The notes beneath the pieces were generated by a model, which was given only the letters and a program-made list of their open reading frames with translations, was not told where the DNA came from and searched no databases. A stretch of 51,814 nucleotides of DNA, taken from positions 1 to 51,814 of the forward strand of contig JAGGVJ010000015.1 in assembly GCA_021158055.1 (NCBI GenBank), in the 5' to 3' direction. This document shows positions 2,070-20,951 of the stretch, one piece after another. The stretch is from Candidatus Iainarchaeum sp. GTDB lineage: Archaea > Iainarchaeota > Iainarchaeia > JAGGVJ01. The position numbers were made by a program, and so were the translations under genes. The stretch's first letter is position 1. Each line of letters opens with the position of its first letter.

Positions 2070-2160
2070 TATAACGGAATGAGGATAAAAGAAGTTTTCG
2101 TAGCGGAGAAAATTTGGGAAAATTGCGAGCCGAGCAATTTTCCTTTTATCCCTTGTTATA
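2070..2160. other. Nested inverted-repeat structure (attC-like/VCR-like candidate)
   Basis: TATAAC 2070-2075/GTTATA 2155-2160; GGATAAAAG 2083-2091/CTTTTATCC 2143-2151; GGAAAATTGC 2117-2126/GCAATTTTCC 2134-2143. Confidence 0.55.
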
Positions 2161-2166
2161 CGAGGG

Positions 2167-2187
2167 TAAAATTCTGAAAGAATTTTA
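2167..2187. repeat. Perfect hairpin TAAAATTCT-GAA-AGAATTTTA
   Basis: 9-bp perfect stem, 3-nt loop. Confidence 0.8.
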
Positions 2188-2247
2188 AGCGCAGCGTCCC
2201 CAAGCGGAATGAAATGGAGCACAGAGTCGGGCGGAGCAGTGGCGTGA

Positions 2248-2577
2248 TTATCTTTTCCACCTTTTTTCCTTTATGAATATTGATACACATGATAGAAAAT
2301 ACCACCAAATGGGTATTAGTACAATAACTATTTTAATAATAATTGGTGAAGTGAAATCACTATCAACAAAATTTAGTGGCAATAATATAAAATTGTAAAG
2401 ATATTCTTCAAATGCACAAATTGTATTGACAATTGTATTTCCACCTAACCCAAGAATTTCATCAAATACAAAGAAAGAAAAAAGGATTAAAATAACCATA
2501 ATAGGAAATATGATAGTTATAACTATCTTTTTCTTTGTTATTTTGAGAAAATTTTTGATTAGTATTTTCATATTCAT
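2248..2577 (-). CDS. Small hypothetical membrane protein (2-3 TM)
   Basis: 109-aa ORF with hydrophobic segments (IVITIIFPIMVILILFSFFVF; IIIKIVIVLIPIWWYFLSCVSIFI). Confidence 0.5.
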   Translation of the reverse strand: MNMKILIKNFLKITKKKIVITIIFPIMVILILFSFFVFDEILGLGGNTIVNTICAFEEYLYNFILLPLNFVDSDFTSPIIIKIVIVLIPIWWYFLSCVSIFIKEKRWKR

Positions 2578-2634
2578 ATTGTATCTCTTGTAAATTTATA
2601 AAAGTTTGGTTTGAGCCACTGCGTAGCACGATTT

Positions 2635-2687
2635 CGTATAACAACTTATATACGAACTTTTATATATAAAATTTGTTGTTAGTTACG
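2635..2687. promoter_or_regulatory. Palindromic element abutting the recombinase start codon (candidate att site or autoregulatory operator)
   Basis: CGTATAACAAC ... GTTGTTA(gt)TACG: 11-bp stem with a 2-nt bulge; inner palindrome TTTTATATATAAAA. Confidence 0.45.
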
Positions 2688-2688
2688 T

Positions 2689-3507
2689 ATGGACGAACTT
2701 GAAAGATTAAACATTGAATTGAATTCAAGGGGATTCAGCCATAAAACAAAAAAATCTTATTTGTTTTTCATTGCTGATTTTCTGAAATTCACTAAAAAGA
2801 AGCCTCGTGAGATTCAAAAGGAAGACATTAAAAAATACATATCTTACCTTATTGTCAATAAAAAATATACAAATATCACTGCGAATGTGGCAATAAGCTC
2901 TCTAAAATTCTTTTTCGGCAGGGTTTTGGAAAAAGATGTATGCAAAGGCATAGAGCGCCCGAAAAGGGAAAACAGGCTGCCTACGGTGTTGTCAAAAGGG
3001 GAAGTAAGGAAAATCATAGGTTCTGCAAGCAATATAAAACACAAATTGGTTCTGAAATGCATTTATGGAATGGGTTTAAGGGTTTCAGAAGTTGTCAACT
3101 TGAAATTAGCTGATTTTGATTTTGACAGAGACATGGTAAAGATATGTTCTGCCAAAGGAAACAAAGACAGGTATGTTATGCTGCCAAAGGGCTTGAAATC
3201 GAATTTGATCAGCTATATTGAACTTGAAAAACCGGAAAAATATTTGTTTTCAGGCAGAAAAGCAAAATACACAATCAAATCAGTCCAGAAAATATTTGCA
3301 AATTCATTAAGGAAAACAGGCATTAAAAAAAAAGCAAGCTGCCATACTTTAAGGCATTCTTTTGCAACTCATCTGCTGGAACAGGGAATTGATATCCGGT
3401 ATATTCAGTCTCTCCTTGGACATTCAAGGTTGCAGACAACCCAAATATATACTCATGTAGCAAATAATAAATTAAAAAACATACAAAGTCCTTTAGATAA
3501 TCTGTAG
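2689..3507 (+). CDS. Tyrosine recombinase/integrase (XerA/Xer-like, with IntI-like C-terminal SPLDNL)
   Basis: GMGLRVSEV, HTLRHSFATHLLEQG, LLGHSRLQTTQIYTHV: catalytic R...H-R...H...Y. Confidence 0.92.
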   Translation: MDELERLNIELNSRGFSHKTKKSYLFFIADFLKFTKKKPREIQKEDIKKYISYLIVNKKYTNITANVAISSLKFFFGRVLEKDVCKGIERPKRENRLPTVLSKGEVRKIIGSASNIKHKLVLKCIYGMGLRVSEVVNLKLADFDFDRDMVKICSAKGNKDRYVMLPKGLKSNLISYIELEKPEKYLFSGRKAKYTIKSVQKIFANSLRKTGIKKKASCHTLRHSFATHLLEQGIDIRYIQSLLGHSRLQTTQIYTHVANNKLKNIQSPLDNL

Positions 3508-20850: not shown

Positions 20851-20951
20851 GCGGGGGTCCCAGAGTCTGGTCAAATGGGATGGACTCAAGATCTTTTGAT
20901 AGGAAATCCATTGGCCTAGCGCCTACGCAGGTTCGAATCCTGCCCCCCGCA
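20851..20951 (+). tRNA. tRNA-Leu (anticodon CAA) with ~15-nt intron
   Basis: GCGGGGG/CCCCCGC acceptor; T-arm GCAGGTTCGAATCCTGC; class II variable arm GGC-CTAGC-GCC; anticodon stem ATGGA(20880-20884)/TCCAT(20907-20911) is interrupted by TCTTTTGATAGGAAA after loop CTCAAGA. Confidence 0.88.

Follow-up and report, generated by a model that had tools for sequence, protein, structure and literature searches.

A probable one-cassette integron with an Xer-like recombinase lacking the I2 domain in a Candidatus Iainarchaeum genome

A folded inverted repeat at positions 2070-2160 of a 51,814-nucleotide contig of Candidatus Iainarchaeum sp. (the whole of which is referred to here as the window) lies upstream of a tyrosine recombinase gene, raising the question of whether the two belong to one gene-capture system and, if so, of which kind. 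Integron theory attributes the conversion of a double-strand Xer-type recombinase into a single-strand cassette integrase to gain of the I2 helix, and the I2 domain is the mark by which surveys recognise integrons. Integrons reported from 75 archaeal MAGs, including Nanoarchaeota, were mostly integrase-less attC clusters, with IntI defined by its specific domain (Ghaly et al., 2022, PMC9668308, with 539 archaeal attCs), and the I2 helix has been described as necessary for cassette capture (PMC7790495), which counts against an integron lacking I2 in the window. We nevertheless assign a probability of about 0.88 to the reading that the window holds a small integron, in which the recombinase acts on an adjacent dif-like attI and on attC-like sites.

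The first-pass annotation had described the repeat as three nested inverted pairs resembling attC sites, Vibrio VCRs among them. All three pairs are present, TATAAC/GTTATA outermost (2070-2075 and 2155-2160), GGATAAAA(G)/(C)TTTTATCC in the middle (2083-2091 and 2143-2151) and GGAAAATTGC/GCAATTTTCC innermost (2117-2126 and 2134-2143), but a fourth helix, AAGTTTTC/GAAAATTT (2092-2099 and 2108-2115), had been overlooked, and the hairpin is therefore a three-way junction and no simple nest. This fourth helix is the P2 stem (2092-2115, plus strand), which contains a conserved G.T pair and forms part of an AAGTTT...AAATTTGGG junction motif, while the P3 stem-loop, GGAAAATTGC-GAGCCGA-GCAATTTTCC (2117-2143, plus strand), is a variable terminal structure. 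Folded as DNA, the hairpin reaches -16 kcal/mol, compared with -8.3 +/- 2.15 kcal/mol for dinucleotide shuffles (z -3.6, 0/200). With its boxes the attC-like site spans 2067-2163, its minus strand being the sense strand of the cassette ORF and its plus strand the predicted recombinogenic (bottom) strand. On the minus strand, the R'' (inverse core) box is TCGTATAAC (2155-2163) and the R' (core) box is G^TTATATTC (2067-2075), the linear R' of the cassette reading GTTATATTC; the point of strand exchange is presumed to fall between 2075 and 2074, a position analogous to G^TT of known cassettes. The window boxes GTATAAC/GTTATAT deviate from RYYYAAC/GTTRRRY, to which several relatives conform (GCCTAAC/GTTAGGT in genome G081).

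Beside the recombinase start lies an attI-like, dif-like site, TTCGTATA-TAAGTTG^T-TATACGAA (2633-2657, minus strand), an exact palindrome with 8-bp arms and a spacer of 8 that reads TAAGTTGT on the minus strand. Similar blocks occur upstream of related recombinases (L102, L104, G016, G081 and CPR loci; the example at L172 reads CATATAACAAGTTATATACGAACTTATT), and none was seen in the scanned upstream regions of XerA genes of the window's class. Its sequence and location make it a putative adjacent attI with insertion at G^TT.

In integron arrays, R'' must complement the first bases of its own cassette, because both ends are joined in the circular cassette. The window follows this rule exactly: the cassette start GTTATACGA (2642-2634, minus strand) pairs at 9/9 bases with R'' TCGTATAAC (2163-2155, minus strand), and the 11-mer TCGTATAACAA occurs exactly in the window at 2153-2163 and 2634-2644 only. 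From this complementarity we deduce a single cassette of 567 bp (2075-2641, minus strand), which begins TTATACGA... and ends with the G of R'. Its ORF (2248-2577, minus strand) encodes 109 hydrophobic amino acids, probably a membrane protein, without a match in Pfam or PADLOC, and is flanked by a CAGTGGC/GCCACTG inverted repeat. An apparent likeness between the cassette ORFs of the window and of G042 was not significant. The earlier suggestion of a non-canonical cassette system is supported, with its layout corrected: on the minus strand (2657-2070) the dif-like attI is followed by the 109-aa ORF and the attC-like site, and the recombinase adjoins the cassette and is divergent from it, as in integrons. 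R'' likewise agrees with the cassette start at three sites of G083 and in Falkowbacteria. Among 68 sites, the window's included, a 9-mer complementary to R'' lies upstream on the same strand in 26, compared with 1, 1 and 2 in three controls and a chance expectation of 0.43; 26/68 is a floor, since flanks are often too short to reach the cassette start. The match stops sharply at nine bases, with ten in 2 sites.

Direct DNA searches with the hairpin recovered another copy from the window's own genome (86%, solitary on contig C43, with a changed R'' box) and one in G045, from another family of the window's class; no copies were found in phages. The matches from an initial DNA search of relatives were mostly due to chance, and one at L016, within a tRNA insert, was set aside; at that locus (1440-1620) a tRNA-like gene apparently has a long insert holding a GAAAATTGCGCAGCAATTTTCC hairpin. 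Covariance models R1, R2 and R3 were then built from the window hairpin, each extending the search for copies. R1 yielded further sites in G081, G042 and G083, its weak matches at L068, L070 and L071 looking like chance, and R3 matched 124/334 genomes of the CPR class of a Candidatus Falkowbacteria genome and 74/327 genomes of Nanobdellota, the phylum of L102. Most of the genomes compared are metagenome-assembled. An attC-like folded site is borne out by these many copies, by their covariance-model scores and by their array context. The likeness to Vibrio VCRs was not upheld: the closest relatives found form a family of three-way junctions with strongly conserved AAGTTT...AAATTTGGG in DPANN archaea and CPR bacteria.

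At the 19 loci with at least two sites, every further copy (30/30) is on the same strand. The order ORF then attC, on one strand, holds in the window and at L002, L015, L080, L081 (two) and L104 (three). L104 is a complete example, with a recombinase, an attI-like block and ORFs of 293, 530 and 376 aa each followed by a site, and with more sites spread over 16 kb. Site-recombinase pairs were tabulated by hand for sites on the same contig and nearby; among the matches listed, the site lies on the 5' side of the recombinase in constant relative orientation in 74/78 pairs at 36 loci, the exceptions including G211 and one G725 site. R1 found no site beside XerA genes of the class, which at first pointed to a recombinase unrelated to the hairpin; a scan of genome contigs reversed that reading. 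The first-pass annotation had proposed a search for copies next to unrelated small ORFs; many genomes have copies that adjoin unrelated ORFs, arrayed on one strand beside this type of recombinase.

Among the cassette cargo in G083 (L080, 121-2889, and L088, 1142-4021) are a candidate defence protein of 922 aa resembling sacsin/TmtA and a type II restriction enzyme together with its methylase. In two different genomes, an attC lies beside the same gene set (L002, 1498-2888, and L079, 6692-7882), comprising a DUF5320-like gene and an ArsP-like permease, with an additional DUF134 gene in L002; the two sets have opposite orientations relative to the attC.

Within the integron reading, a sub-case is that the anatomy is right and the system is inactive, a decayed integron with one cassette left. 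Surveys have called integrons by at least two attCs in 4 kb or by an IntI, and the window has one attC; at least two within 4 kb were found in relatives, G042, G083 and G089 among them. Decay is also suggested by the altered R'' box of the solitary copy on C43 and by related loci: at L102, the nearest relative, the attI is kept and the attC persists only as truncated, broken pieces, and at L066 in G081 the recombinase next to the site is truncated and the attC strand carries no ORF. Against this, the window's recombinase ORF is intact, its attI is a perfect palindrome and its R'' matches the cassette start exactly, and we regard decay as a possible but rather unlikely state of this locus.

The remaining alternatives turn largely on the recombinase, a XerA/IntI-like tyrosine recombinase of 272 aa (2689-3507, plus strand). 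If it were an ordinary IntI with an I2 domain acting on ordinary attCs, the window would hold a canonical integron, a view that draws on TIGR02249 as second-best NCBIfam model (237.5 bits), on IntI4 as second PDB match and on sites, such as those in G081, that fit RYYYAAC/GTTRRRY. The TIGR02249 score is, however, below the cut-off of 265, and the patch II-III segment measures 64 aa compared with 107 in the reference, a canonical IntI from CPR genome G295. This shortfall of 43 residues, which all array-linked relatives aligned share, means that the IntI-specific (I2) domain is lacking and confirms what had been noticed from the sequence at first pass. IntI above cut-off was found in 0/87 genomes of the window's class, in 0/34 Nanobdellota and in 1/31 of a mostly CPR set (1/65 over both mostly array-rich sets). 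The window protein is no canonical IntI, although an undetected IntI could still act in trans, and a canonical integron is accordingly highly improbable. The single canonical IntI is L152 (G295:C17:2627-3577), full-length at 435.6 bits; its CPR genome also carries many sites of the family and a recombinase without I2.

Equally hard to sustain is the proposal that the protein is a housekeeping XerA with its dif site, lying beside an unrelated hairpin that is perhaps an Xer-dependent MITE-like element. The protein does score above the cut-off of NF040815 (recomb_XerA_Arch), and it shares protein length, domain plan and dif-like inverted arms with archaeal XerA/dif (PDB 5hxy, 4a8e). It is also the sole Phage_integrase match in its genome, where a search found no other Xer-like gene, so that it might double as XerA, and XerA homologues occur in 64/87 genomes of the class. 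Those homologues are only about 40% identical to it and lack the upstream site, whereas L102, a 73% identical homologue, coexists in genome G087 with another, separate XerA-like gene, which makes it probable that the window recombinase differs from housekeeping XerA. Many Nanobdellota genomes likewise have two XerA-like genes. In the tree, the window recombinase pairs with L102 (100/100) within a clade that also holds IntI and the array recombinases, and the XerA of the class falls outside it; the forks that separate the clade, and several inner ones, have 90-94% support, IntI being a long branch. Among the matches listed, moreover, recombinases related to it occur in linkage with arrays of the site family. 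An XerD-like gene in G083 adjoins uvrC and looks like bacterial contamination.

We return to the integron reading and to the sites themselves. In 71 aligned copies, two-sided changes affect 27/30 pairs, and the covariation score is 0.504, compared with 0.133 for shuffled and at most 0.085 for slid alignments. The 71-site alignment was fitted to the covariance model, which favours structure, but both controls and the covariation already seen in three unfitted aligned copies argue that the signal is real. Of the helices, the outer TATAAC/GTTATA pair is kept least strictly, with 84% of cells paired, because a linear array takes part of the R' box from neighbouring DNA, as integron logic predicts. 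A check on folding of the bottom strand had been proposed: by predicted energies, 69/71 sites are more stable when folded from the strand opposite the ORF (mean -2.5 kcal/mol), and the G.T pair in P2, which the opposite strand would replace with a C.A mismatch, is kept in 68/71. These energies and the conserved G.T would fit integron-like use of the bottom strand and argue against function in a sense transcript. That the hairpin is a structured RNA, or a terminator of the cassette ORF, as a strongly covarying fold 3' of ORFs might suggest, is scarcely credible given the less stable sense strand with its C.A mismatch, the agreement of site ends with cassette starts, the lack of an Rfam match for the hairpin and the varied genes beside the copies, which also dispose of the idea of a 3' UTR conserved with a fixed neighbour.

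We infer catalysis, single-strand use and the exact cut point as follows. A cassette would consist of an ORF and its attC, and in the excised circle its joined ends would form the R''/R' box. The bottom strand of the attC (plus strand of the window) would fold into the three-way junction, the paired R''/R' and P1 arms imitating a double-stranded site of the dif type. The recombinase would swap one strand at G^TT with attI. An incoming cassette would land first in the array, divergent from the recombinase, and an attI emptied by cassette loss would read TTCGTATATAAGTTG joined to TTATATTC. For an integrase without the I2 helix, strand choice and the block to a second exchange must differ from those of known integrons; the conserved junction and the G.T pair are candidate determinants of both.

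Known integrons share with the window system a divergent tyrosine recombinase, an attI, cassettes of ORF plus attC in one orientation, cassette ends complementary to R'' and, by prediction here, folded bottom-strand sites. They differ in that IntI has the I2 domain, and in that the family described here has a common three-way junction with conserved AAGTTT...AAATTTGGG. Archaeal XerA/dif differs in its place in the tree and in lacking the adjacent attI and the array-linked relatives. In pdif/Xer modules and IMEX elements, Xer-type recombination moves modules between short inverted boxes, whereas here modules end in a long covarying hairpin, in one orientation, and window-type arrays have a dedicated linked recombinase.

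We think it reasonably likely that these loci represent a widespread DPANN/CPR integron lineage, with I2-less Xer-like integrases and another attC architecture selecting the strand, which may be, or descend from, the pre-I2 stage that gave rise to IntI. Our search of the open-access literature found no report of CPR integrons or of I2-less integrons or integrases. If the lineage is real, cassette capture needs no I2, array-linked I2-less integrases provide a missing comparison point for integron origin, and the oversight of such integrons by domain-based searches is explained. It would also be a general gene-capture system for very small genomes; the cargo observed in such arrays includes the restriction-modification pair and the sacsin-like protein described above.

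Other features of the window were recorded alongside. Its AlaRS and LeuRS are archaeal. A MITE-like element lies directly to the left of the attC (1874-2027), with terminal inverted repeats of 21 nt (81%) separated by 112 nt. The contig end (1-112) consists of a 17-bp tandem repeat, GAAAAGGTGTAAGATTG, in 6.6 perfect copies, and a 101-nt tRNA at 20851-20951, detected by Rfam and not by ARAGORN, probably contains an intron.
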